64,000 bases of DNA from an uncultured Serinicoccus sp. (GTDB taxonomy: Bacteria; Actinomycetota; Actinomycetes; Actinomycetales; Dermatophilaceae): assembly GCF_947500995.1 (NCBI RefSeq), contig NZ_CANMUA010000002.1:1-64000 (forward strand). Direction: 5' to 3'. Both the position numbers and the translations under genes were made by a program. Positions 38,957-60,491 of this stretch are shown here, one piece after another; positions within the stretch are counted from its first letter, which is position 1, and each line of letters starts with the position of its first letter. The notes beneath the pieces were generated by a model. It was not told the origin of the DNA and searched no databases. It was given only the letters and a program-made list of their open reading frames with translations.

Positions 38957-41900
38957 TCAGTAGTGCTCGGCGATGTACTCGTACGCCCGCTCGAACAGAC
39001 CGGGGGTCTTGTGCAGTTGGTGCCTGTGCAGCACTTCACGGACGTGTCGACGTACGAGTTGGTCGCCCTGTTGCGTGGCCTCCCAACCGTCGTACCGAAC
39101 TTCCCGGACGATGCTGTCGATGTCGTTGACGACGCGCTCGACCAGGGCCGGCGAGTCATCCGCGGCGTACTCGACGAAGATTTGCGTCAGTGCCCCCACA
39201 CGCGGATCGGGCAGCAGGTCCAGCTTGCCCTCGTGATCTGCCTTTTCAGCCGCAGTTAGGTCCTTCGCCAACTGGAAGGCCTCCCGCAGCCACTCGATTG
39301 ACTGCTCGGCCGCGGCCATGGTCCGTTCCCGTAGACGATCGAGCCGCTCGGCGAGCGACTTGTACACGGGGTGTTCGCCCGAGGCGTCCTCACGCTTCTT
39401 CAGCCGGGCGGCGATGGAGTCGATGATGTCGTCGGCGGTCTTGCCCTCAACCTCTTTTGGATCTTCCAGAAGGCCTTCGTCGATCAGGGTGCGGACCGTT
39501 TCGGCGTCGGCTACTACAACCTCATCGGCGCGGGTGACCCTGATGTCGTCCATGTGCCCGTGCACCAGGCCCAGTGTCTTCGCGCCGAGCCTGTGCCACA
39601 GGTGGTCGGCCGGTCCGGGCGGGGGCTGCAAGGAGGCGTAGACCTGGGACAGGAAGCGGTACTCCATGCGGTGGGTGCGCAGGTCGTCGTGCGGCCAGAG
39701 GGTTTCCCAGATGCCCTCAAGCATGACGTAGTTCGCAGCGAACTTCTGCTCGTCCTCGGGTCGGGGCATCCTGGCCTGGGCATCTATCAGCGTCTGTGGG
39801 CCCTGCTGGTTAACGTCAATGCCGGCGAACCGGACCATGGTGGCTTCTAGCTGCGCCTCGAAGACCTCGACGAGCCCCTCGATCTCGATCTGCTGCTGTG
39901 CCTGCTTCGGGTTGGCCGGTGCCATCGCCGTGGCGAAGCCAGCTCCGAGACCGACGTAGTCGACGATGATCCCGTACCGCTTGTCTGCACCCGTCTCGGG
40001 GTTGCGCCAGGTGCGGTTTGCCCGGGTGATCGTCTGGAACAGCGTGTGGTCTTTCAGCGGCTTGTCCAGGTACAGCACGCCCTCGATGGGTGCGTTGAAC
40101 CCTGTGCCAAGCTTGGAGGTGCAGACCAGGAACTTCAGTGGGTCACCGTGGGTGCGGAACCGCTTGAGCAGGTCGGCCTCCTGCGACTCGGTCAGGGCGT
40201 ACTTCTGCCAGGCGGGGTCCTCCCCCTTCGCGGTGCCGACGGTCATCACGACGGCGACCTCGTCCCGCACTGGCGCTGGCACGTCGTCGCCGATCTGGGC
40301 CCACTCCCGCTGCTGACGCTCTTCGAGCATCTGACCCAGCTCCTCGGTGTACGCGACGCACGCGGCCCGGTCGACCACGACGATCTGCGCCTTCATCCCG
40401 AGCGGGTCCACGGTGGAGTAGAAGTGGTCAATGAGGTCCTCGCAGACGGCCCGTACCCGGTCGGGGTTGCCGAAGAACGTCGAGGCCCGGGAGGCCCGCC
40501 TGGCGAGTTCGTCCTGCTGGACGTCGTCGAGGTTCTCGTCCTGCGCCATGACCTTGAACGCCTCATCGAGGCCTTGCTTGTCGAGGGTGAACTCGACCCT
40601 GCGTGGGGCGACGTGGATCGGCACGGTCATCCCGTCGCGGATCGACGCGTCCGTGCCGTAGGTGTGCAGCGCACTGCCGGGGTCCGTCTCGTCACCGAAA
40701 GTCGCAAAGGTGTTGCGGTCGACGTCGGCGATCGGGGTGCCGGTGAACGCGAAAAGGTTGGCGTTCGGCAGTGCCGCCCGCATCGTCTGCCCCAGGTCGC
40801 CCTCCTGGGTGCGGTGGGCCTCGTCGACCAACACCACGATGTTGTCCCGCTCGTTCAGCACTCCGGCGCCCGCGAATTTGTGAACTGTGGTGAAGATCAG
40901 TCCACGCCGGTCGGACCTCAGCAGGTCCTGCAAGGCACCCGCGGTGGGCGGTACTTGCAGCCGTGGCATGGACGTGGTGCGGAACTGGTCCCATAGTTGC
41001 TGGACGAGTTGCACGCGGTCGGCGACCAGCACGATCGTCGGGTTGTTCAGCTCGGGGTCGCGCAGCAGCTTCCCGGCCGCGAACACCATCGCCAGCGTTT
41101 TGCCCGACCCCTGGGTGTGGTAGATCAGGCCCTTGCGCCGGGCCGGGTCCTTTACCCGGCCCACGATCAGGTTGACGGCTTCGTACTGGGTGTATCGGGC
41201 TAGCAGCTTGTTCAGCGAACGGGTGCCGTCGTCGGACTGCGGCGTCTCGAACGCAACGTAGTCGGCCAGGAAGTCGAGCACGGTCCGCGGCGTCAGCATC
41301 GAGGTCGCGGCCTGCAGCACGTCGGCCAGGCGCGGCTGGTCCTTCACCGCCCCCCAGGTGTGCCAGTGCTGCACCGGGGTGCGAACACCGGCGTAACGGA
41401 ACTGTTTGCCCTCGGTGGCGAAGGTCAGCACGTTCGGCACGAAGAACGGCGCCCAGCTCTCCTGGTAGGTCTCGACCAGCTCGCTCGCGCCCTTGACCCA
41501 CGACACCCGCTGGTTCACCGGTGTTTTCAGCTCCCCCACGACCAGGGGGAAGCCGTTTACCCACAGAACCACGTCGAACCGGGCCACGTGCCCCGGGATG
41601 CCGTACCGAATCTCCTCCGAGACGACGAAGACGTTGTTGGACAAGTCATCGAAATCGAGCAACCGCACCGGGACCGAGCCCTTGGTGCCGACGAACTCGT
41701 GCGTCACCTCACCGCGCAGCCAGGCCGCGAAATCCCGGTTGCTCTCCATCAAGCCGACATCATGCGCAGTCAGGGGCATCGTCCGCAGCTGACGCAACAC
41801 CTCGTGCACCCGCTCCGGGTCCTCCGCGATCACCGGGTTCAGCCGCACCAGCGACTCCACCACCTGGTCGGTGACGAACGGATCCTCGTCCGGCCGACCC

Positions 41901-41992
41901 AGCTCATTGGCCGGGACGTGAGTCCACCCGACACCTTCCAACGCCTTGATGAGCGGCGCCTGAACACTCAGAAGCTCCCCCAACCCGCTCAT
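38957..41992 (-). CDS. hsdR: Type I restriction endonuclease, R subunit
   Basis: FDVVLWVNGFPLVVGELKTP nuclease motif; IYHTQGSGKTLAMVFAA; VLVDEAHRTQEGDLG; FAFTGTPI. Confidence 0.96.
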   Translation of the reverse strand: MSGLGELLSVQAPLIKALEGVGWTHVPANELGRPDEDPFVTDQVVESLVRLNPVIAEDPERVHEVLRQLRTMPLTAHDVGLMESNRDFAAWLRGEVTHEFVGTKGSVPVRLLDFDDLSNNVFVVSEEIRYGIPGHVARFDVVLWVNGFPLVVGELKTPVNQRVSWVKGASELVETYQESWAPFFVPNVLTFATEGKQFRYAGVRTPVQHWHTWGAVKDQPRLADVLQAATSMLTPRTVLDFLADYVAFETPQSDDGTRSLNKLLARYTQYEAVNLIVGRVKDPARRKGLIYHTQGSGKTLAMVFAAGKLLRDPELNNPTIVLVADRVQLVQQLWDQFRTTSMPRLQVPPTAGALQDLLRSDRRGLIFTTVHKFAGAGVLNERDNIVVLVDEAHRTQEGDLGQTMRAALPNANLFAFTGTPIADVDRNTFATFGDETDPGSALHTYGTDASIRDGMTVPIHVAPRRVEFTLDKQGLDEAFKVMAQDENLDDVQQDELARRASRASTFFGNPDRVRAVCEDLIDHFYSTVDPLGMKAQIVVVDRAACVAYTEELGQMLEERQQREWAQIGDDVPAPVRDEVAVVMTVGTAKGEDPAWQKYALTESQEADLLKRFRTHGDPLKFLVCTSKLGTGFNAPIEGVLYLDKPLKDHTLFQTITRANRTWRNPETGADKRYGIIVDYVGLGAGFATAMAPANPKQAQQQIEIEGLVEVFEAQLEATMVRFAGIDVNQQGPQTLIDAQARMPRPEDEQKFAANYVMLEGIWETLWPHDDLRTHRMEYRFLSQVYASLQPPPGPADHLWHRLGAKTLGLVHGHMDDIRVTRADEVVVADAETVRTLIDEGLLEDPKEVEGKTADDIIDSIAARLKKREDASGEHPVYKSLAERLDRLRERTMAAAEQSIEWLREAFQLAKDLTAAEKADHEGKLDLLPDPRVGALTQIFVEYAADDSPALVERVVNDIDSIVREVRYDGWEATQQGDQLVRRHVREVLHRHQLHKTPGLFERAYEYIAEHY

Positions 41993-43170
41993 GCAGCCAC
42001 GTCCTCCATCAGCTCGTCGTACGACTCCGGGATCTCGTGCTCGCCCGACAGTAAGGCGGTCAGCAGGTTCGAGCGGACATTGCGTAGACGGGTCGCATGC
42101 CGCCGCAGCCCTTCACGTGCTTTGGTCAAGGCGTCGTACTTACCGGCGAGACCGGCCATCTCGTCGGCCGCGTGCCAGCGAACCTCGATCGACATAAGCT
42201 CGGTCCGGTTAATCTTTGGCATCTTCGTCCTGCCAGAGCGAGAGGCCGCCACTTCAGTGAAGGCGCTGCTCAGTAGAAGCTGCTGAAGGTAGCGCCGTGG
42301 AACCCCGTCCCGGCCGAGAAGGGGGTACGCGTCAGCGCTACACAAACCCGGCGCATCGGGTACCGCCACTTTGCGAAGGTTTGGCCGAATCTTGGAGTAG
42401 ATCACGTGCCGGTCGTCGAACCGATACTTGCCACTTGTCACCCCATCTTCCCGGGCACTGACCACTCCCACCAAGTCGCCCGTTCCGCTGACGATTCGCT
42501 CCGCACCGACGTGGGGAAGTTCGGCGAGGGAACCCGTCGGCTTCACCAGCGACCCATCAACCGAACAGAGCTGATCGAGACTCACGCAGACTTTGCCGAC
42601 CGGACTAAAGTCAACGTCGCGCATCAGTTCCGTTGCGGAGAGCAGATGCGCGTAGGCGCTCTCGGCGGTCGTGATGGTGTCGTCAAGGGCGGTGACCAGG
42701 TCCACGATGCGCCGCTGCTCGGCGACTTGGGGATACTGGACGGGCACGCTTAAGAGGTCCCTCGGGTTGAGGCGTTCGCGACGCCCGCCGACGCCCTTAG
42801 ACTGCGCTGCGAGGTCCGCCCAGAGCGCAGGCCGCTGGGTGATTAGCTGAACATACTTGGGAAGCGCCCGCGCAGTGGTCCTGTAGGTGGGGAACTCAGG
42901 GGATGCATAGGCTATGTCATGCTCGGCGGGGACGACAGTGATAGCCCCCTCGAACGCCTTCAGCTTGCTGTAAATGAGCTGGCCGGGCCGGACCTGGTGC
43001 AGCTGCTTATAGCGCGTACTCTCCGTGGTGACCGCATCTCGGTGCAACAGTCCTCGCCCGAAGCCGAGCACGCCAACGATTGGATACTTGGTTCCCCGCT
43101 GAACATCTACCTTCTGAATGTCCGGCTGCACGAGGTCTCCGAAAGTGCCCTGCTGCCACTCCTTACGCAT
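41989..43170 (-). CDS. hsdS: Type I restriction specificity subunit
   Basis: Two recognition-domain-like halves with conserved helices (VAEQRRIVDLVTALDDTITTAESAYAHLL; ALTKAREGLRRHATRLRNVRSNLLTALLSGE). Confidence 0.92.
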   Translation of the reverse strand: MRKEWQQGTFGDLVQPDIQKVDVQRGTKYPIVGVLGFGRGLLHRDAVTTESTRYKQLHQVRPGQLIYSKLKAFEGAITVVPAEHDIAYASPEFPTYRTTARALPKYVQLITQRPALWADLAAQSKGVGGRRERLNPRDLLSVPVQYPQVAEQRRIVDLVTALDDTITTAESAYAHLLSATELMRDVDFSPVGKVCVSLDQLCSVDGSLVKPTGSLAELPHVGAERIVSGTGDLVGVVSAREDGVTSGKYRFDDRHVIYSKIRPNLRKVAVPDAPGLCSADAYPLLGRDGVPRRYLQQLLLSSAFTEVAASRSGRTKMPKINRTELMSIEVRWHAADEMAGLAGKYDALTKAREGLRRHATRLRNVRSNLLTALLSGEHEIPESYDELMEDVAA

Positions 43171-44677
43171 TGAAACCCGCCGCCTTAAGTTTCTCGTCCA
43201 GTACGTGCTCGGCGGCGCGCAGCTCGGCCCGGGCGTCGTGGTAGGCGGCCAGGGCGGCCTCGACGTCAACCTCGACGGCAGCCTGGGTGGTGATGTAGCG
43301 CCCGATGTTCAGATCGAAGTTGTTGCCGGCGATCTCGTCCAGGTTGACCAGGCGCAGGTTAAGACCACTCTCGCCGTCGATGTCCTCACCCTGCGCGTAA
43401 GCCGCGTGGATCGTCTCGATGTCGGCGTCGGACATCGTGTTCTGGTTCTTGCCGGCGCGGAACCGTGCTGCGGCGTCGACGAAGAGCACCTTGCCGGCGC
43501 GCTCAACTGGTTTAGTCTTGCGGAAAATGAGTAATGCCACCGGGATAGTCGTGGAGTAGAACAGGTTGTTGGGCAGTCCGATGATCGCCTCGAGCAGGTC
43601 CTTCTCCACCAGGCACTGCCGGATGTTGCCCTCCTTGCCGCCGCGGAACAGAACGCCGTGTGGCATGACGACCCCGACCCGACCGGTGTCCTCCCGCATC
43701 ACCGAGATCATGTGCTGGATCCAGGCGAAGTCGCCGTTCTTGGCCGGTGGCACTCCGCAGAACGCGCGACCGTAGGGGTCGTTGGACCAGCCGGCGGCAC
43801 CCCAGTTCTGAAGGCTGAACGGCGGGTTGGCGATGACGACGTCGAACCGGTCGAGCTTGCCCTTCGTGACGAACCGCGGCTCCCGGAAGGTGTCGCCGCG
43901 GCGAATCTCAAAGTCGCTCAGTCCGTGCAGGTAGAGGTTCATCTTTGCGATGGCGCTGGTGGTCAGGTTGATCTCCTGGCCATGCAGTCGCAGCGTCCGC
44001 GGATCGCCACCGGCTTCGGTGACCGCGTTGATCGTCTCGACCAGCATTCCGCCCGAGCCACAGGCCGGGTCCACGATGTGGTCACCTGGCTGGGGGGCGA
44101 GAATCTTGACGAGCAGGTGGACGACGTGGCGAGGCGTGAAGAACTCCCCGGCCTTCTTGCCGCTGGCCTCGGCGAACTCGCGCAGCAGGTACTCGTACGC
44201 AGCTCCGAGCATGTCGCCTTCGATGTGGTTCGGGTCGAGCTTAACGCCATGAAAGGTGTCAAGTAGGGCAACCAGGGCGTTCTCGGGCAGGCGCTGCTTG
44301 TTGGCCCAGTTCACGTCTCCGAAGACGCCGACCAGGTCGGGGTTGGCCTGTTCGATGCGCTGCAGAGCGGTGTTCAATTTTACGCCGACGTTGGTGACGG
44401 TCTGGTGCACGTCCGCCCAGTGGCAGCCGTCGGGGATCGTGAACGGGTGATAGTCGGCCTCGATCTCGTCCGTGAGCTCGTCGCCCCATATCTCGATCGC
44501 ATGTGCATGCCAGGAGTCCCAGGTGTCCGAGATCCACTTGTAGAACATCACCGGGAAGACATAGGCCTTGAAGTCGCCCGGGTCAACGGGCCCCCGTAGC
44601 GCGTTTGCCGCGGCCCACAGGGTTGACTCGAGCTGGCGCTGCGTCATGACCTGCACGTCGCTGTCGGCGTAGGTCAC
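43163..44677 (-). CDS. hsdM: Type I DNA methyltransferase subunit
   Basis: FFTPRHVVHLLVKILAPQPGDHIVDPACGSGGMLVETI; FDVVIANPPFSLQNWG. Confidence 0.96.
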   Translation of the reverse strand: MTYADSDVQVMTQRQLESTLWAAANALRGPVDPGDFKAYVFPVMFYKWISDTWDSWHAHAIEIWGDELTDEIEADYHPFTIPDGCHWADVHQTVTNVGVKLNTALQRIEQANPDLVGVFGDVNWANKQRLPENALVALLDTFHGVKLDPNHIEGDMLGAAYEYLLREFAEASGKKAGEFFTPRHVVHLLVKILAPQPGDHIVDPACGSGGMLVETINAVTEAGGDPRTLRLHGQEINLTTSAIAKMNLYLHGLSDFEIRRGDTFREPRFVTKGKLDRFDVVIANPPFSLQNWGAAGWSNDPYGRAFCGVPPAKNGDFAWIQHMISVMREDTGRVGVVMPHGVLFRGGKEGNIRQCLVEKDLLEAIIGLPNNLFYSTTIPVALLIFRKTKPVERAGKVLFVDAAARFRAGKNQNTMSDADIETIHAAYAQGEDIDGESGLNLRLVNLDEIAGNNFDLNIGRYITTQAAVEVDVEAALAAYHDARAELRAAEHVLDEKLKAAGFNA

Positions 44678-45116
44678 CCTCGGCCCTCCTCTTTCTCGAA
44701 ACTTCCGCCCTGTCCCGAGCAACTTACATGGACCCTCCCGCGCTGGACCGGCAGGCGGGCTGCAGCAACAGAGGTTGTTCGGCACGGACACCGTGTCCGA
44801 TCGCCGGTGCCCGCACCACGACGCAGCCGGTTCAACGGCCGTCACACCCCAGCTTGGGGTGCTGCACCCGCAAATGGCCGGCAGCCATCGTGGGGTCGCG
44901 GCCAGGAAGAAGGACCTCGGGCTTTCACGTCACACGTCCGTGGAGTTTGAGGTAGGAAGCCAGACAACCTTGGAGGCGTGGGCGGCATCGCTTAACTGGG
45001 GCCCGTCACGGCCTGGAAAGTGCTCCCTCGGGATCCCAAGCTGGCGGAACAGGCGCCCTCAAGATGCATGCGAGATGCACGACGTAGCGATTACGCTGGG
45101 CTGTCGCGTACCGGGT

Positions 45117-46064
45117 TTAGTGGAGGCTCTGAACTGACGCGTCGACGGTAGCTGGTGCGTGGTTGTGACGGTAGTAGTGATCCTCGAGCTCGACCGGGGG
45201 TACGAGTCCGAGCTCGCCGTGCAGGCGTCGGTGGTTGAACCAGTCGATGTACTCGGCGACGGCGATCTCGAGGTCGTCGATGTGCTTCCAGGGCCCTTTG
45301 TTGCGGACGAGCTCGGCCTTGAACAGTGAGTTGAACGCCTCGGCCATGGCGTTGTCGTAGGAGTCGCCGGTCGAGCCGACCGAGGCGACGGCGCCGGCCT
45401 CGGCCAGCCTCTGGGTGTACCGCACGGCGAGGTACTGCACGCCCTTGTCCGAGTGCGCGATCACGCCGGTGGTGTCCTGGCCGGCGTGCTGGCGGGTCCA
45501 CAGGCCCATCTCGAGGGCGTCCAGGGCCAGGTCGGTGCGCAGGGACTTGGATAGCTGCCAGCCGACGACGCGGCGGGAGTACACGTCGATGACGAACGCG
45601 GCGTAGACCCACCCGGCGAACGTGCGGCAGTAGGTGATGTCGGCGACCCACACCCTGTTCGGTGCGGGCGCCTTGAAGTCGCGGTCCAGCAGGTCCGGTC
45701 GGGTGCCCGGACCGGTGCCCGGGATCGTGGTCCTGGGGCCCTTGGCGCGGGTAATCCCGCGCAGTCCCTCGGCCCGCATGATCCGGTGCACGGTGCACCG
45801 GGCGATGCGGTGCCCGGTCCGGTTCAGCTCGGCGTGTATCTTGCGGACGCCGTAGACGCCGTAGTTGTCCGCGTGGACCGCCCGGATCACCTCCCGGTGG
45901 CCCTGGTCGGCCACCGCCCGCGCCGAGGGCGGCCTGGTCTTGGCGGCGTAGTAGCTGCTCGGGGCGATCTGCATCCCGGCCTCACGTAGGACGGTGCAGA
46001 TCGGCTCGACCCCGAACCGGCCGCGGTGCTGGTCGATGTACTCGACCAGCACCGCAGTGCTCAC
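45117..46064 (-). CDS. IS3-family transposase OrfB (DDE integrase core)
   Basis: HRIMRAEGLRGITRAKGPRTT...RVWVADITYCRTFAGWVYAAFVIDVYSRRVVGWQLSKS...STGDSYDNAMAEAFNSLFKAEL. Confidence 0.95.
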   Translation of the reverse strand: MSTAVLVEYIDQHRGRFGVEPICTVLREAGMQIAPSSYYAAKTRPPSARAVADQGHREVIRAVHADNYGVYGVRKIHAELNRTGHRIARCTVHRIMRAEGLRGITRAKGPRTTIPGTGPGTRPDLLDRDFKAPAPNRVWVADITYCRTFAGWVYAAFVIDVYSRRVVGWQLSKSLRTDLALDALEMGLWTRQHAGQDTTGVIAHSDKGVQYLAVRYTQRLAEAGAVASVGSTGDSYDNAMAEAFNSLFKAELVRNKGPWKHIDDLEIAVAEYIDWFNHRRLHGELGLVPPVELEDHYYRHNHAPATVDASVQSLH

Positions 46065-46390
46065 TTCAGCTTGCGGTCGAGCTCCGCCGCGGCGAAAAAC
46101 GCCGACGCCGTCCGCAGAATCTCGTTCGCCCGCCGTAGCTCCTTGACCTCACGCTCGAGCTCGGTGATCCGCTGCGTCTCCGCCGTCGTCGTCCCAGGAC
46201 GGTGGCCCTCGTCGATCTCGGCCTGCGTGACCCAGTTGCGCAATGTCTCGGGATTGATCCCCAGCTGCTCACCCACCCGGCGCAGCGCACCGGTCCTGGT
46301 CGCCGGGTCCCGCCGCAGATCGAGCGCCATCCGGATCGCTCTGTCCCGAAGCTCCTCGGGGTACTTCCTCGGTGCTGCCATGACTCTCAT
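46061..46390 (-). CDS. IS3-family transposase OrfA
   Basis: MRVMAAPRKYPEELRDRAIRMALDLRRDPATRTGALRRVGEQLGINPETLRNWV...EREVKELRRANEILRTASAFFAAAELD. Confidence 0.93.
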   Translation of the reverse strand: MRVMAAPRKYPEELRDRAIRMALDLRRDPATRTGALRRVGEQLGINPETLRNWVTQAEIDEGHRPGTTTAETQRITELEREVKELRRANEILRTASAFFAAAELDRKLK

Positions 46391-46889
46391 CCTTCCGTGG
46401 AATGAGAGCCTCCATCAGACCCGGCACGCGACACGCGGCTCGCGGACGTCTCCTTAACTCACAGGCTAAACCAACAGAGACAGACCGGGTGTCAATGGCC
46501 AGACCGGGTGAGCGTGGACTGGAAGTTCTCACGTCCGTCCCGGCAGCGGTGGGCAGCAGTGGATCTGAGACCACGGGGAACCAACTGGTGCCAACCCTCG
46601 GCAGCACACGGACCCTGGCTCGGTATGAAGCCCCCAGCCATGGATGTCATACCGCCCAGTAGGACACAGGGGTGTCGTTGGGTCGAGTCTCGCCCCAGGG
46701 CGAAGGCGCGCTACGCCTACCAGGACCTTCGGTTCGGCTGAGTCTTGGGCTGTGCACCGTCAAAGCGCAACTACTCCCTGCCCAGGAGATTGCGGGGTAG
46801 CGATGACAGTGACAACAGCGCAACTCGTGTCGACATTTCATGCTGGTCGGCTCTGTTAGTGCCCGGGAATTCGCCACTTGGCCGCTGGT

Positions 46890-49800
46890 CTATTCGGCTG
46901 CGACTGCCGGCCTTACGAACGGATCCGAATGGTCGATGTCATCCTCGCTCCAACCGTACCTGGCCCGAAGGAGCTCCAATACCGCAGCCGATGGCAACGG
47001 CTCCGGCCGAACGACCAGACTCCACCAGGTCTGGGCGCTGGCTGTGACGGTCACCAGTAGTGCCTGTCTCAACGCCTCGACGGTGAACAGGTCGGTTGCC
47101 ACCGGGTCGCCCTCCGGCTCCGGGGCCATGAACACCTCGCGCAACTGCCGCGCCTCATCGGGTGACCCCGGCGCGAGAAACGTGTGCCGTGCGTTCTTCG
47201 CGACGTTGTGGACCGCGATCAATATTTGCCAGTCCCTCCAGCCCTCGTCGCGCAGCGTGACGACCACATCGGCAAAGGCGGCATCGTTCCGCAACGCGTC
47301 GAGAGTTGGCCTCATCCGCGGCGGCAAGTCGTTGTAGCGATGCTGGATCTCCTTTCGGCTCCGGTCTGGGTCGTACCCGGGCCCTCTCGTGCTAGGAGCT
47401 GCGAGATCTGGATGTGATTCAGCCGAGGTCACGTCCGGCGCTGAGAGTGGCGCGGTCGTGCGCGGTCGGGCATCGAAACTCGCCTCGGATACGGTCGAGC
47501 GCCAGAGCACGTCGTACGGGACAGCGAATGTGATGTCGGTTAGCAGATCATCCTCAAGACCGCCGACCAAGATCTCCTGGAACCGGTCATCGGACAGCGT
47601 GGAAACCTCCACGACCGCGGCCGTGACTGCTGCCAACGTCCGCCGAGCGACCACGTTGGCCGACTCATGCGTCAGACGGTCGACGGCGGGCAACAGCACA
47701 CTGAGCCTGCTCTCCGCGGGCGTCGATGCCTTGTCCTCGACGCTAAAGTCAGCGCCTGCGGGGAGCGCGGTGACGTAGACGGCCCTGCGCATCGGTACGA
47801 GGCCCAAATCCTTGTCAGCCAGATGCGCCAGTAGGACCTGCAAAGCGGCCGCGAACCGCTCACCGACCGCAACGTCGGCATACAAGTTGCGAAACACGAC
47901 CTTCCAAGTAACCCCTAGGGCATCGAACCGGACGTGGCGGACTTCGGTCGTGTCACCGAACGGTGGCCTCCCGAGATCGTCGACCACCCGATCGACGTGC
48001 TCGTCGAACTCGATGTCCTCGAACCACGGCCGTCGACCCTCAAACGCTTCAGCGAGAAGGTCATCCAGGAACTCGCTGATCCCGCCGCGGACGATAGCGC
48101 CCTCAACGTTCGCCCAGTACGGATCCCCGGCCTTGCGAGCCAAAGACCTGATCTGGGTCAGCTCGAAGAACGCGCCCGTGAGCCAGCCATGCCGATCAAA
48201 GTCCATCGGCCGCTCGGCGAGCAGACGGTGTGACACCAGTGCAACGCAGTTCATGTGAGCAGCGCTGCACCACGACCCCTGGTGGTAGTCGGCGAACGCG
48301 GCGTACGCCAACCCGATCGAGTGCTGAGCTGGGTCCGTGCTATCAACGAGGTACGCCGCCGCCAGTGCGTACTGCTTGGCCGCCATGTACAGGCCCAGCT
48401 CTCGGTAAGCGACGGAGGTTGCCAGAGTCGCGTGCACCATTTGCTCCCGGCTGTCCCCCGAGAACAACCCGTTCCGAGCCCGGTGCAGCTGCTTAAGCGC
48501 AGCAACCCGCCGTTCCGCGCTGATCAACGCCTGGCACCTATCGAGGGCGTTGTTCGCAGCTGTCGTCTCTCCGCTGGTCGTCGCGACCCGCGCGTCGATG
48601 GCATCGACCACCTCGTCGTAACCGGGGATGTCAACCAGGACCGGCGCAAACATCGTCAACACCTTGCCAAGAGTCTCCACAGGGAACAAGGGTGCCCCTG
48701 GGAGAACCTCCACCAGCCTCCTATACGCGCCGATCGCACCCGCCGGGTCCACAAGTGGCACATTGACCAGCGTCAGTTCACCGGCCGCCATCGCCGCTCG
48801 GAGCTCCTCCGAGGTCATGTCTGTGAACTTGTCACCGATGACGTACCCGTCCTCGGTCTCGTTCGCGGTCATCACATCGGGTTGAAGCCGCAGCCACCCG
48901 AGCGTGTCGAGGAGGATGCAGGCGGCACCAGGAGGCGGGTCCGCATTTAGGAGCACCTCGACCCTTTGGGACAGGCCGACGTTCCAAGCATGAAGGGTCT
49001 CCGCAGCGTGCCCAGTCCTGCCACGTGCCGCCGCACCAGTCATGTACATCAGGAGCACCGACGCGTCCGAGAGTTCCTGACCGTCAGCGGTTATGACGGC
49101 TTCGTCCAGGTACTCCGCGGCCCGATCATCGGCGGGAGTCAGGTCGCCCAGGCCGCGGATGTTCGCGGCCACGCACTCGTACAGCGCCCTCCTGCGAAGC
49201 GCCTGTGGACGGCCTGGCTCGAGAGCACTCTCCAGCCGCTCGAGCCAGAATGGCAGGTCGGGGCGGCCCTCGCGGGTCACGCACGCGTAGTGCAAGCACC
49301 CAGCGAGGTCGAGCAGGCGACCCACCGTGTCGACTGGGTCGGTATCCGCGCGCCAGCGAGCAAGGTCCTCGTCGTACCAGTCGGGCCGGTCAAAGGGCAC
49401 CGGCAGCACCCGCGCGGGAAGGTGCAGGTAGGTCTCTGCGATCCAAAACAATGCATGGTCCGAGAGAAGCTCAGCGATCGCGTTGCCGTCGAAGACCGCC
49501 AGGCGCACCCGGTGTCGCTCCATCGCATCTCGCTCGATTGCGTGCCGCCGCGCGACCGGGATATCCGCCTCGCAGTACGCGACGATGGACTCGACCTCGG
49601 ACCCGCCGTCGACGATCTCGGCGACATCAGCACGGATCTTCCCACGCAGGTCGCTCTGCTGGAGCGTGCACGCGAAACCGACCATGGCCCGGTCCGGGAC
49701 GCCGAGGTCGCGCCCGATCCGCTGGACCTGTCCCGGCAGCTGCGTCGGGAATGTCTCGAAGTCGCGACCCTGGTCTCCACCACCGGCGACCGGCCCGGTC

Positions 49801-49940
49801 GCCGGCAGCAGGTTCCGGGTCACCGTCGCCCTGGCGAGCATCCGCGTCAAGGTCTCGAACTCGTGTTGGCCGTTCCGAACTCGCAGTTGATTCAGCGCGA
49901 ACCGGATTTCGTGTCGAACGTGCTCGACATTGTCAGCCAT
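46890..49940 (-). CDS. Large uncharacterised protein: N-terminal PD-(D/E)XK-like restriction-type domain + long alpha-helical region
   Basis: 1016 aa; EFETLTRMLARATVTRNLLPATGPVAGGGDQGRDFETFPT...AMVGFACTLQQSDLRGKIRADVAEI; HRVRLAVFDGNAIAELLSDHALFWIAETYL; remaining roughly 800 aa helical, no recognised domain. Confidence 0.7.
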   Translation of the reverse strand: MADNVEHVRHEIRFALNQLRVRNGQHEFETLTRMLARATVTRNLLPATGPVAGGGDQGRDFETFPTQLPGQVQRIGRDLGVPDRAMVGFACTLQQSDLRGKIRADVAEIVDGGSEVESIVAYCEADIPVARRHAIERDAMERHRVRLAVFDGNAIAELLSDHALFWIAETYLHLPARVLPVPFDRPDWYDEDLARWRADTDPVDTVGRLLDLAGCLHYACVTREGRPDLPFWLERLESALEPGRPQALRRRALYECVAANIRGLGDLTPADDRAAEYLDEAVITADGQELSDASVLLMYMTGAAARGRTGHAAETLHAWNVGLSQRVEVLLNADPPPGAACILLDTLGWLRLQPDVMTANETEDGYVIGDKFTDMTSEELRAAMAAGELTLVNVPLVDPAGAIGAYRRLVEVLPGAPLFPVETLGKVLTMFAPVLVDIPGYDEVVDAIDARVATTSGETTAANNALDRCQALISAERRVAALKQLHRARNGLFSGDSREQMVHATLATSVAYRELGLYMAAKQYALAAAYLVDSTDPAQHSIGLAYAAFADYHQGSWCSAAHMNCVALVSHRLLAERPMDFDRHGWLTGAFFELTQIRSLARKAGDPYWANVEGAIVRGGISEFLDDLLAEAFEGRRPWFEDIEFDEHVDRVVDDLGRPPFGDTTEVRHVRFDALGVTWKVVFRNLYADVAVGERFAAALQVLLAHLADKDLGLVPMRRAVYVTALPAGADFSVEDKASTPAESRLSVLLPAVDRLTHESANVVARRTLAAVTAAVVEVSTLSDDRFQEILVGGLEDDLLTDITFAVPYDVLWRSTVSEASFDARPRTTAPLSAPDVTSAESHPDLAAPSTRGPGYDPDRSRKEIQHRYNDLPPRMRPTLDALRNDAAFADVVVTLRDEGWRDWQILIAVHNVAKNARHTFLAPGSPDEARQLREVFMAPEPEGDPVATDLFTVEALRQALLVTVTASAQTWWSLVVRPEPLPSAAVLELLRARYGWSEDDIDHSDPFVRPAVAAE

Positions 49941-50426
49941 CGGCAGACGCTCTCACAACGGTCTGCGTTCTCGACCGCCGACCTACCCCGGAGGGGTAAC
50001 GACGGCCCCAGCCAGTACCCCAGGAGACCATCGCGGGCACTCGTGCAGCGTCCAGCGGCCGTGCCCCGCCGGGTTCACGCAGTGCAAGATTCACTTCAAC
50101 CGCGGCGTGCACACGACGATGGAGCGCGGATTCGAGCAGCGGTGGTCCTTCCAGAAGTGGACCGGGAGATCTCGTCTCCCGTCCATGACCCACGCGTCGA
50201 GGACGAGGCGCCTGTAGGACTTGAGTGGCTGGCCGCCGCGCCCCACAAAGAGTTCTCTGGCGATTCGACCAGACCCGCGCCGAGAAGGCCCGGGGAGGCG
50301 ACACACAAGCAGAGGTCCCATCTCGGCGGTGCGGAGCCGAGTTGCCAGAAGGGTTCACTAGACCAGCGTGGCACAGGCCCCGACCGCGCCTGAGGTTTGA
50401 CCCGCTAGCAACGCAGCCAGGACATT

Positions 50427-52889
50427 ATGAATGACCGTAGGGTCTCTCCCAGAGCGAGGAAACGTATGAAGCAGATGCCTGAAGTCAGCCCCGAGCCTTC
50501 GAACCATGGGGAGATACCGTTCAACGAAGACCCAGAGGCGGAGCTCGGCTTGTTCGCGGGATGCCACACCCCGACAGACCTTCGAAGGGTGTTCCGCGCC
50601 GAGGTCGACAGGGCGGTGGAGCAGATGCTCGCCTTGGTACACGACGCGGACGCGTTCGACGTCATCGAACTCATGCGGATGCAAGAGTTCTTCCCCCTGA
50701 GCCCGCTCCTCACCCTCCCCGACGCGTCAGCACTGAACGTCGAGATCGTCGCAGCCATGCTCCTGGGCCGCCCTTCGCGCAGGCGCCCACCTACACCGCA
50801 CGAGGATTCACGCCCCGACGGTGTCATCCCTGAACTTCGTGATCGCTCTTCGCGCCTGATTCGACTAGCGAACTATCGTCACCTGTCGGAGGCCACGCTC
50901 CAGGGCGACTCGTTAGCGCTGCTCGCCGCGCAGTACCAGTCGTCCGTCCTGCTCATCCGCAACCTTCTGTACGACAGCATTCGCGACGCACAGGATACCC
51001 AACTGTTCGACGACCCGAGAGTTCGGCCGCTGATGAGTGAGTACCTCGGATACACCTATCCAGATGTTGTCGCGGTCCGCAACACGATGAAGAACATCGG
51101 CAGGGAGCGCTTGAAGTCGGTTGTCGACGAGACCATCGATGTGTTCGGACGCGACCGAGGGACCGCGCAAGCCGACATGCCAGTGGAATGGCGGAAAGCG
51201 CTCCAGGCAGCCCTCGAGAAGTTCTTGATCCGGCCAGCGGGCAGAGCAGTGATGACGCCGGCACAGGTGGCGCAGGATGCTGGGATTTCGGAAACGGCTG
51301 CGTTCGCTGTCATGAACTCCTCGGCCCAAGAGTTCGACCCGAGCGTCGCACCGGAAGACCGGGTGTTCGAACTACTGACTTCGACAAACCCGTTTCTCGC
51401 CAAACCTCTGGTGTCGGACGGGGCCGGAAACTTTGCCGAGACCACCATCGGTGTCGGACTGGACTCCTTGCGTCGTACCGTCGAGGGTGCGCTCACGAAT
51501 ACCAAGCACTGGCACACATACGACCAGAAAGTCCGGCAGGTCGTCAGCGAACGTCTTGCCCTCGACTCCCTACAACGTGTCTTGGGGGCGCCACCGGCCC
51601 TGGCAGGCGCCAAGTACTACGCACCCACGGATGACACCAGCGCGCACCTGCTTGGCCGGGACAGCGCGAACCTGAAGAGTGTGGGGAAGATCGTGGAGGG
51701 TGACGGGCTGTTCGTCATCGGCGACGTGGCGATCTGCGTCGAGGTGAAGGGCAAATCGATGTCAGCCCCGGCTCGTCGGGGAGACGTCCACCGACTGTGG
51801 AACGACCTGCGCGCGACGATCGGGAACGGCCATGCACAGGCTGCACGTCTACAGGCGCTCATCGAGAACAACCATGGGATTTGGTTGCGCGACGGCACCT
51901 GGTTCGACCTGAGCCCCGTGCGTGAAGTCCGGTCTGTGGTCGCACTCCTTGATGACATCGGTCCCTTGGGCACGAACCTCGGCGATCATCGCAGCAGTGG
52001 GTTGCTACCAACACACGGCACTCCGTGGATCACATCGCTGCACGATCTTGAGACCATCGCCCAGGTATGCCAACGGCCCTCGGAGTTCCTCCTTTACCTG
52101 CGCCGACGGACCGACTCGGACGTAACCACCTATTACAAGGGCGCAGACGAGCTCGATCTTTTCATGCTGTTCATGGACGCCGACCTCTACGTCGAACCCG
52201 ACCCCGACCGGCTCCACCCGCAACACCCCGACACTCCAGGAGAGACGAAGCGCGCCCGCCCGACTCACGACGAGGACGCGGTCCTGACGTTTGTTGGGGA
52301 CCAGTGCGCCGAGCTGGACGCGTGGATGAACCGTGACAACCTGGTCCCGGGTGTTCCCCAACCGGTAAAGCCGACTTACCGGGCGCTCCCCCGGGTCCTC
52401 GACCTCGTCGACGCAGTCGAGGCGCACGGAAACGGCATGGTCCGCTTCGGCGCTGACATGTTCGCCCTGTCGGAGGACACCCAGCAGACCGTGCTGGAGG
52501 GTATTGACGAGTGCATCCGACGCACCCGCCTTGACGGGCAGCCCCACGACGGGATGATCTCCCTCGCCGGGGCGTGGGGGCACCCGACCCTCTTCTTCTT
52601 CACCCGACCCCACGCTTACGACCAAGACACGGTCCTACGCCGGTTCGCTGCCTACATCCGCCTCAAGCGTCACCAGCTCGGGTCAGACCGGTCGTATGGA
52701 CTGCTCTTCGACGAGGACGGTAACTTCGAAGTCGCCATGTACTTCAACAGCCTTCCGGAGGCCGACGCAAACCTCGACGCCCTCGTCAAGGCGGCGAACC
52801 TACAAGAACCGGCCGCGACCGGCCCCCGCGTCCCCCCTTCGGCTCGCCGAACGACTCGTCGTCTCCGGAGCGGCAGGAAGAACCGCTGA
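50427..52889 (+). CDS. Large uncharacterised protein with internal PD-(D/E)XK-like nuclease motif
   Basis: 820 aa; DGLFVIGDVAICVEVKGKSMSAPARRGDVHRLWNDL fits the D...(D/E)xK core; divergent from the 1016-aa gene. Confidence 0.7.
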   Translation: MNDRRVSPRARKRMKQMPEVSPEPSNHGEIPFNEDPEAELGLFAGCHTPTDLRRVFRAEVDRAVEQMLALVHDADAFDVIELMRMQEFFPLSPLLTLPDASALNVEIVAAMLLGRPSRRRPPTPHEDSRPDGVIPELRDRSSRLIRLANYRHLSEATLQGDSLALLAAQYQSSVLLIRNLLYDSIRDAQDTQLFDDPRVRPLMSEYLGYTYPDVVAVRNTMKNIGRERLKSVVDETIDVFGRDRGTAQADMPVEWRKALQAALEKFLIRPAGRAVMTPAQVAQDAGISETAAFAVMNSSAQEFDPSVAPEDRVFELLTSTNPFLAKPLVSDGAGNFAETTIGVGLDSLRRTVEGALTNTKHWHTYDQKVRQVVSERLALDSLQRVLGAPPALAGAKYYAPTDDTSAHLLGRDSANLKSVGKIVEGDGLFVIGDVAICVEVKGKSMSAPARRGDVHRLWNDLRATIGNGHAQAARLQALIENNHGIWLRDGTWFDLSPVREVRSVVALLDDIGPLGTNLGDHRSSGLLPTHGTPWITSLHDLETIAQVCQRPSEFLLYLRRRTDSDVTTYYKGADELDLFMLFMDADLYVEPDPDRLHPQHPDTPGETKRARPTHDEDAVLTFVGDQCAELDAWMNRDNLVPGVPQPVKPTYRALPRVLDLVDAVEAHGNGMVRFGADMFALSEDTQQTVLEGIDECIRRTRLDGQPHDGMISLAGAWGHPTLFFFTRPHAYDQDTVLRRFAAYIRLKRHQLGSDRSYGLLFDEDGNFEVAMYFNSLPEADANLDALVKAANLQEPAATGPRVPPSARRTTRRLRSGRKNR

Positions 52890-52973
52890 CCAGCGAACGC
52901 TCCAACACCTAAGGCGCAGACCGGTCTTCATGCGGACCTGGAGTGTGTCCGTAGCGGCTGGTATGCAGAGCCC

Positions 52974-53252
52974 ATGACTGACACCGACTGGGTCGCCCTC
53001 GGTGCCATCGCGGGAGCCCTAACGGCGCTTGGGACAGCCGCGATGGCCGTTGCCATCATCGTCACCGCCCTATACGCACGAGACACTCTGCAAGCGACAC
53101 GGGACGACAGCCGAGCGCGAACTCGACCGGTGATCGTCGCCGAATTGCGGCGGGAGAGCCTCTCGAAGGGCACCGCGCTCCTGGTGCTGAAGAACCTCGG
53201 ACAGTCTGTGGCTGCGAACGTGTCGGTGACCTATCCTGGCCCGGCACGCTGA
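52974..53252 (+). CDS. Small single-TM hypothetical protein, probably 3'-truncated
   Basis: MTDTDWVALGAIAGALTALGTAAMAVAIIVTALYARDTLQATRDDSRARTRPVIVAELRRE...; runs into recombinase remnant. Confidence 0.5.
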   Translation: MTDTDWVALGAIAGALTALGTAAMAVAIIVTALYARDTLQATRDDSRARTRPVIVAELRRESLSKGTALLVLKNLGQSVAANVSVTYPGPAR

Positions 53253-53656: not shown

Positions 53657-54724
53657 ATGTCGGAGAAGCAGTACCGCGACAAGATTGTGGCGATCCGGAA
53701 GCAGCAAGCCAGTGACGAGACGAACCGCGGGAAGGCGCGGGCAGCCGCCGGGAAGCATCGCGCCGACGCGGCCAAGGAGCTCCAGAAGATCACGCCGCGC
53801 ACGAGCGCCAGCATGGCTCGGACCTACCAGCGCAACGCGGAGAACCTAGAGAAGAGGGCTCAGGCCGAGGACAAGAAGGTGAGCGCCCTGTCGGTCAAGC
53901 TCAGCAAGTCAGCCGGAGACCTGGCAACGGCTGAGGAGAACCTCGCCCGTGAGATCAAGAGCTCGGCGAAGAAGGAGGAGGACAAGAAGAAGGCCGATGC
54001 TCGAACCCGGGAGCAGGCGGATGCCCGGCGTCAGCAGAAGGAGAAGAGTCATGCCCGCGAGATCGCGCGGCTCTCCAGCCCTACCGTGCACTACGTGACG
54101 GTTCAGCCGCCGAAGCCAGAGATTCTCCGAGTCCTTTACCTGACCGCCAACCCTGAGATGGACCTCCGAACCGAGGTCGAGGTTCGTGACGTTCAGCAGG
54201 CGGTCAAACGTGCGCTACACCGAGATCTCATTGACATCCAGTACCGGCCCGCAGCTACCCCTGAAGACCTACTCGACGGTCTGAACGACGTCCGACCCCA
54301 CGTTGTCCACTTTTCCGGTCACGCCGGCGATGCCGCGGTATTGTTCGACAACGCCAGCGTCGACGGCCCCGAGGGGCGGGACGTTCCATTTGAGCTGCTG
54401 GCTCGTGCCCTTAGCGCCACCGCTGAACCGCCGAAACTGCTGACCCTGAATGGCTGCGACACCCTTGATGGAGCTGAGGTCTTGCTTGAGGCGACCCCTG
54501 TGATCATCGCAATGGCGACCCAGATCAGCGACTTGGCTGCTAGTGCCTTCGCCGCCAGGTTCTACGCTGCGATTGCCTCAGCGCAGCCGATCGGGCCGGC
54601 GCTACGCCAAGGTGCGGTCGTACTGGACCTGATGGGGCTGGACGAGGGTTGGAAGCCCACCCTGCTCTCACGCGACGATCTTGACGTCGACGACCTGGTC
54701 TTGGTTCGAGTCGCGGGCGAATAG
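53657..54724 (+). CDS. Coiled-coil + CHAT (caspase-like) protease-domain protein
   Basis: N-terminal Lys/Glu/Ala-rich coiled coil; ILRVLYLTANPEMDLRTEVEVRDVQQAVKRA...VRPHVVHFSGHAGDAAVLF...PKLLTLNGCDTLDGAEVL, with His (FSGH) and Cys (NGC) catalytic-type motifs. Confidence 0.8.
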   Translation: MSEKQYRDKIVAIRKQQASDETNRGKARAAAGKHRADAAKELQKITPRTSASMARTYQRNAENLEKRAQAEDKKVSALSVKLSKSAGDLATAEENLAREIKSSAKKEEDKKKADARTREQADARRQQKEKSHAREIARLSSPTVHYVTVQPPKPEILRVLYLTANPEMDLRTEVEVRDVQQAVKRALHRDLIDIQYRPAATPEDLLDGLNDVRPHVVHFSGHAGDAAVLFDNASVDGPEGRDVPFELLARALSATAEPPKLLTLNGCDTLDGAEVLLEATPVIIAMATQISDLAASAFAARFYAAIASAQPIGPALRQGAVVLDLMGLDEGWKPTLLSRDDLDVDDLVLVRVAGE

Positions 54725-60214: not shown

Positions 60215-60225
60215 ACTGTACTGGT

Positions 60226-60297
60226 GGACGATACTGGGATCGAACCAGTGACCTCTTCCGTGTCAAGGAAGCGCGCTACCGCTGCGCCAATCGTCCC
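60226..60297 (-). tRNA. tRNA-Val(GAC)
   Basis: Minus strand GGGACGATTGGCGCAGCGGTAGCGCGCTTCCTTGACACGGAAGAGGTCACTGGTTCGATCCCAGTATCGTCC; anticodon loop TTGACAC. Confidence 0.93.
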
Positions 60298-60320
60298 TGC
60301 GCGGTGGACCCGCGAGTGCG

Positions 60321-60391
60321 AGGTGGAGACGGGATTCGAACCCGTGTATACGGCTTTGCAGGCCGCTGCCTCGCCTCTCGGCCACTCCACC
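60321..60391 (-). tRNA. tRNA-Cys(GCA)
   Basis: Minus strand GGTGGAGTGGCCGAGAGGCGAGGCAGCGGCCTGCAAAGCCGTATACACGGGTTCGAATCCCGTCTCCACCT; anticodon loop CTGCAAA. Confidence 0.93.
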
Positions 60392-60418
60392 GTGAGGCAT
60401 CTGGTGGTGCTGCCTCAG

Positions 60419-60491
60419 AGCGGATGACCGGGCTCGAACCGGCGACCTCAACCTTGGCAAGGTTGCGCTCTACCAACTGAGCTACATCCGC
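60419..60491 (-). tRNA. tRNA-Gly(GCC)
   Basis: Minus strand GCGGATGTAGCTCAGTTGGTAGAGCGCAACCTTGCCAAGGTTGAGGTCGCCGGTTCGAGCCCGGTCATCCGCT; anticodon loop TTGCCAA. Confidence 0.94.

Follow-up and report, generated by a model that had tools for sequence, protein, structure and literature searches.

Two adjacent, probably separate candidate defence genes with predicted PD-(D/E)XK domains in an uncultured Serinicoccus sp.

The 64,000-nt stretch of DNA analysed here (hereafter the window) comes from an uncultured Serinicoccus sp. (contig NZ_CANMUA010000002.1, positions 1 to 64,000) and carries two large divergent genes, which we named P1 and P2. P1 encodes a 1016-aa protein on the minus strand (46890..49940) and P2 an 820-aa protein on the plus strand (50427..52889), both from an ATG start. 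P1 was resolved into a predicted variant Mrr-like PD-(D/E)XK head, a TPR-like scaffold and a C-terminal region, and P2 into a large protein with a predicted central PD-(D/E)XK nuclease domain. An earlier reading of the DNA, made from the sequence alone (the original prediction), had proposed that the two genes form a novel defence module. The analyses described below partly support that proposal and indicate that P1 and P2 are more likely two separate unnamed candidate defence genes than a pair. The layout proved correct, since the start codons are separated by 486 bp (49941..50426) where about 490 bp had been given, and both motifs lie where they had been placed: GGDQGRDFET...VGFACTLQQSDLRGKIRADV corresponds to residues 54-106 in the N-terminus of P1, and GDVAICVEVKGKS to about residues 431-443 in the middle of P2. 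The ratio of non-synonymous to synonymous substitution rates (dN/dS) against the Ornithinimicrobium murale copies was 0.29 for P1 and 0.42 and 0.20 for the two halves of P2, indicating that both are real coding genes under purifying selection. Direct searches of P1 and P2, as single sequences and as profiles, gave nothing significant in Pfam, NCBIfam, PADLOC, PHROGs or PDB, and no family of the PADLOC models (2023 release) was matched by either protein, in agreement with the claim that neither gene belongs to a named family or system.

The N-terminal domain of P1 (residues 1-175, 49416..49940, minus strand) was examined in an alignment of the heads of 19 diverse sequences from family A, to which P1 belongs, and from the more distant family B. 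E29, G49, P50, G54, G55, D56, D60, E62 and K101 are kept throughout this alignment, a conservation beyond chance, and E62 is replaced by Gln (DxE to DxQ) in some family-B members from viral contigs. The P1 head lacks the canonical catalytic lysine of the (D/E/Q)-x-K motif: the position is occupied by Gln94 in P1 and by Q, E or N across family A, and usually by Lys (SAK) in family B. The invariant K101 lies on the helix next after the Gln94 position and may have replaced the lost lysine. A family-B head query retrieved haloarchaeal proteins (tblastn, 4e-5 and 4e-4) that score as Mrr_cat in Pfam, above the cut-off (6.3e-7 and 1.3e-4). When the P1 head profile was compared with these Mrr_cat-type proteins by hhalign, the probability was 97% over 139 columns, the haloarchaeal VQ being paired with LQ of P1 and the haloarchaeal RK-L-R-S-D with the K101 region. 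Because these intermediates both score as Mrr_cat and align with the head, the P1 head is predicted to be a divergent Mrr-like PD-(D/E)XK domain, a homology reached indirectly. The PD-(D/E)XK-type domain announced for P1 was thus recovered, while its catalytic competence is weakened by the change of Lys to Gln. The head model had a predicted template modelling score (pTM) of 0.73, with residues 45-72 below 50 in the predicted local distance difference test (pLDDT), so that the active-site hairpin was not confidently modelled.

The P1 N-terminal 175 aa are also found, without the P1 body, in front of the NB-ARC and TPR parts of another protein (54% identity; NB-ARC 1.5e-8). This protein, encoded at L032:279-2810 in a genome of another actinobacterial family (G363), is a STAND receptor whose nuclease-type head has no name. 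In Bradyrhizobium, one locus is annotated as two genes; a natural split between head and body was rejected there, as the reading frame is interrupted within the head itself (between residues 107 and 120).

Behind the head, the body of P1 (residues 187-656, 47973..49382, minus strand) is predicted to form TPR-like helical repeats, and an alpha+beta stretch is predicted after it (residues 667-780, 47601..47942, minus strand), both read from a low-confidence model. The full-length model is poor (pLDDT 48) and displays helices in pairs up to about residue 656 and alpha+beta structure beyond. Nearly all the best PDB matches of the modelled body are TPR or other helical-repeat proteins and weak TPR_9 matches were obtained for two P1 relatives, which supports only a tendency of the body towards TPR-like repeats. 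Further downstream, a conserved GWxDWQIL motif (residues 900-907, 47220..47243, minus strand), also present in Bacteroidota proteins, has G900, D903 and W904 invariant in alignment A3. The roughly 800 aa of helical sequence described originally therefore hold for about 470 aa of TPR-like repeats, and the remainder comprises the predicted alpha+beta stretch and the C-terminal part with GWxDWQIL. Eleven full-length P1 relatives, the O. murale copy excluded, align end to end with P1 at 26-33% identity. A Pfam search of P1 and of 10 relatives detected no P-loop NTPase.

In Bacteroidota, the body of P1, starting at about residue 170-188, occurs under a different head, with a body similarity to P1 of E = 1e-32 to 3e-34. 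Two Hymenobacter plasmid proteins bear a Cap4_nuclease head (PF14130), one above the cut-off (4.9e-8) and one just below it (2.2e-5), and a Fibrella protein bears an LmuA/DUF4297-like head (2e-4). The Bacteroidota plasmid proteins in which a Cap4/DUF4297-like head precedes the P1 body are encoded at L069:5257-9006, L070:5137-8523 and L054:3715-7092. Since one nuclease head is swapped for another on a constant body, effector function would fall to the head, and the role of sensor or scaffold to the body. The exchange of nuclease heads on one conserved scaffold, in which no NTPase was detected, points to P1 being a sensor-effector defence protein.

The substitution at position 94 could be read otherwise, the head being a dead PD-(D/E)XK fold that senses nucleic acid or nucleotide, and P1 acting through its scaffold and C-terminal region or through a partner such as an AAA_13 ATPase, a kinase or a 332-aa downstream gene. 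The replacement of Lys by Gln, Glu or Asn in family A and of DxE by DxQ in some family-B members would fit such a fold, nucleotide sensing has been proposed as a role of inactive REase domains (PMC12839542), and partner genes (AAA_13, the 332-aa gene, the kinase) do occur at some loci. However, D56, D60 and K101 are strictly kept and E29 and E62 almost so, the Cap4 heads found on the same body in Bacteroidota have a QxK motif, and most P1 loci are without a fixed partner. We consider a dead head rather doubtful.

The P1 family, which has no name in any library searched, is widespread yet rare: counting family B and the Cap4-headed forms, it was found in Actinobacteria, Alpha- and Betaproteobacteria, Cyanobacteria, Bacillota and Bacteroidota. 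Family B (1017-1112 aa; Cohnella, Nostoc, Burkholderia, Cupriavidus, Agrobacterium and others) shares with P1 the head and, in part, the helical body, and has a different C-terminus. It was also detected in a viral collection (12 contigs, L091-L102) and in one unannotated 11.6-kb gut phage record (MT836254). A scan of IMG/VR with the P1 alignment returned no relatives. P1 homologues mostly stand as a lone gene. An AAA_13 ATPase, a P1 homologue and a 332-aa protein follow one another in two genomes (G083 and G698), and the 332-aa gene is also present in a third (G113); the ATPase was seen at L107 (4922-11901) and L029, the 332-aa gene at these two and at L030. This run is a possible three-gene variant of P1. 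A Ser/Thr kinase gene lies directly beside family A or B genes at three loci (L047:7692-8852, L051:7302-8834 and L060:8281-9657) and was classed as PD-T4-6-like by PADLOC in the two loci scanned. Among the annotated neighbours of P1 homologues are CHAT, HEPN, Shedu, Mrr, reverse transcriptase, ABC-three-component (ABC-3C), DarT/macro (DarTG-like), AbiE, HNH and HipA genes.

For P2, the nuclease core spans residues 375-600 (51549..52226, plus strand) and includes E375, E424-x-D426, E439-x-K441 and Q471xxR474. Across 13 sequences, haloarchaea included and down to 19% identity, E375, Y397, E424-x-D426-x-L428, E439-x-K441, R450, G452, Q471 and R474 are invariant, so that here too the motif exceeds chance. 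These residues provide the D ... (D/E)-x-K motif and the helix Q of PD-(D/E)XK nucleases, and P2 is predicted to hold a complete active-site set, in line with what had been claimed for it. Archaeal P2 relatives gave sub-threshold matches over the catalytic stretch to NERD (0.012) and Card1_endonuc (0.018). No P2 relative was found in phages, nor in viral contigs in two scans of IMG/VR with P2 alignments. In haloarchaeal plasmids (L066:5092-12618 and L067:5200-12507), a short P2-like nuclease stands in an operon with three hypothetical proteins, two of them paralogous, and a DEAD/DEAH helicase. Streptomyces plasmid homologues of P2 (L064:7818-10283 and L068:867-3221) are labelled 'preprotein translocase subunit SecA'; this label was rejected as an apparent misannotation, their C-termini being without the cysteine-rich SEC-C motif.

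A P2 homologue was also found as the second gene, between HmaA and HmaB, of a four-gene Hma operon in Gordonia pGKT2 and in another genome (G169), at L063:4420-16595 and L037:2113-14405. The Hma system was named by Payne et al. (PMC8565338) and re-described as BREX-related systems centred on DUF499, which commonly contain auxiliary PD-(D/E)XK effectors (PMC12839542). As the two operons are 70-90% identical, the association of P2 with Hma is probably one event. No hma genes were found at 21 or more other P2 loci checked, and neither HmaA, HmaB nor HmaC is encoded in the window. A search of this genome for HmaB gave just a 54-position match (5.7e-8) and no credible HmaB.

We then consider whether P1 and P2 belong together. 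The window and O. murale share a block of 6.6 kb at 96% nucleotide identity (46652..53232), with an indel of about 826 bp near 52900; the intergenic region is conserved at about 96% as well. In O. murale the block lies near the same chromosomal segment as in the window, in the opposite orientation. Chromosomal genes to the left of the block are only 67-76% identical to those of O. murale, indicating that P1 and P2 moved together at least once, within one block. No terminal repeats of 12 bases frame it. IS3-family transposase open reading frames flank it (approximately 45117..46390, minus strand), and a 92-aa open reading frame (52974..53252, plus strand) is what remains of a gene that O. murale retains in full length (350 aa). 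There, this gene lies downstream of P2 (L016:12913-13965).

This joint transfer, with the intergenic region included, is what one two-component module would leave behind, for instance cooperating nucleases or genes under shared regulation across the 486-bp region. The wider distribution of the two genes makes such a module very unlikely. Among 188 genomes of the family, 8 have a P2 homologue and 5 a P1 homologue; the figures are 8 and 3 among 376 genomes of the order, and 9 and 2 among 397 genomes of the phylum. These draws overlap, and the distinct actinobacterial genomes number 21 for P2 and 7 for full-length P1. Both genes are present in this genome and in O. murale only, through the one common block, and O. 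murale provided the single locus found when genome contigs were scanned for relatives. Co-occurrence in the 188 genomes has a nominal p=0.015, which we set aside because both genomes hold the same transferred block. Elsewhere P1 and P2 are always apart: 13 plasmid records contain P1, 13 contain P2 and none contains both, and a P1 83% identical to that of the window, in a genome of another family (G644), is without P2 and adjoins a TrwC relaxase and an ArdC protein. Finally, P2 of O. murale has one extra G in a G run right after the VEVKGKS catalytic motif (L016, around 11350), whereas its P1 is intact. This frameshift is either a true pseudogene or a sequencing error. The proposal of a single defence module is thus not supported.

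The surroundings of the two genes in the window had been described as a mobile island with a type I restriction-modification (R-M) system and a CHAT gene, and both neighbours are indeed there: HsdR, HsdS and HsdM (38957..44845, minus strand) and a CHAT-domain protein (53657..54724, plus strand) with a weak match to the phage-defence candidate PDC-S66. Backbone synteny at the genus level stops at about 36-37.5 kb of the window, and a variable island extends from 36.3 to 60.2 kb, reaching a tRNA-Val/Cys/Gly cluster at 60222-60491. The mobile setting also applies to the homologues of P1 and P2, which adjoin defence genes on plasmids and on mobile islands. Mobility of this kind would equally be expected if P1 and P2 were conflict factors of mobile elements, serving plasmid-plasmid competition or island maintenance, and not anti-phage genes: many homologues are on plasmids, some beside relaxase and partition genes and one, as mentioned, beside TrwC/ArdC, and family B occurs in the contigs classed as viral. 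Yet homologues in chromosomal islands and the R-M and CHAT neighbours fit general defence equally well, and the two roles overlap. We hold it unlikely that the genes are conflict factors only.

Taken together, domains and neighbourhood suggest a defence role for P1 and P2, and our best explanation, which we favour with modest confidence, is that two independent, horizontally moving candidate defence genes came to lie adjacent, P1 being a sensor-effector and P2 an intact orphan nuclease. P1 would be a single polypeptide whose N-terminal, exchangeable head of nuclease type is carried by a large TPR-like scaffold, the C-terminal region being conserved. This scaffold would probably recognise an invader-derived molecule, or assemble on one; this recognition would switch on the head, which in turn would damage nucleic acid and so could protect the cell against phages or plasmids. 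P2 would be a large separate protein that usually acts alone through its intact central PD-(D/E)XK nuclease, and it would have been recruited once into the Hma operon as an additional nuclease. What the sequences show directly is the domain make-up of the proteins, the exchange of heads, the conserved active sites, the separate occurrence of the two genes and their mobility. Several points weigh against this explanation. With Gln94 in place of the usual catalytic lysine, the P1 head may be inactive. A Foldseek search of the head model, in which the hairpin is unmodelled, gave no PDB match at E<=0.001, Can2 being found at E 0.21. The Hma link probably represents one event among about 23 P2 loci, and the defence neighbours were counted from annotation, as guilt by association without a background control.

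P1 is of greater interest than P2. We tentatively suggest, as a possibility short of probable, that P1 is the founder of an unnamed family of NTPase-less immune receptors, in which the TPR-like scaffold senses the invader directly and drives exchangeable nuclease heads, lysine-shifted and Mrr-like in Actinobacteria, Alphaproteobacteria and others, and Cap4 in Bacteroidota. If so, the family would follow an Avs-like logic with a dispensable NTPase switch. The exchange of heads on a constant scaffold in which no NTPase could be detected yields a clear, testable prediction on how receptors of this kind are switched, and P2 ties an unnamed orphan nuclease to Hma/BREX-related loci. Should either gene protect cells, it would provide a new model for DefenseFinder and PADLOC; should neither do so, a co-localisation artefact would have been avoided, as P1 and P2 form no module.

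Among known systems, the Mrr_cat (PF04471) type IV restriction endonucleases are the closest to the P1 head, which aligns over its whole length with the haloarchaeal Mrr_cat scorers, the GxDxGxD and VQ...K...D stretches included. However, P1 itself scores no Mrr_cat match, has Gln for the usual Lys, and has its head fused to a scaffold of about 840 aa instead of a winged helix. Cap4/DUF4297 proteins (LmuA, CBASS effector) are related through the Cap4/LmuA-type heads on a P1-type body in Hymenobacter and Fibrella, whereas P1 has no Cap4 domain, no cyclic-nucleotide SAVED domain, no SMC partner and no cyclase. With the STAND/Avs-type and NB-ARC/TPR receptors, P1 shares the arrangement of a head followed by TPR-like repeats, and its head is found on a true NB-ARC/TPR protein, but a P-loop NTPase module was not detected in P1. 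For P2, the Hma/DUF499 BREX-related type-1 systems have a homologue inside the operon in Gordonia and in G169, whereas P2 of the window has no accompanying hma genes. The NERD and Card1-type nucleases are approached by the sub-threshold matches of the archaeal P2 relatives over the catalytic stretch; P2 itself differs from them in giving no significant match, in its flanking regions and in having no CARF domain.

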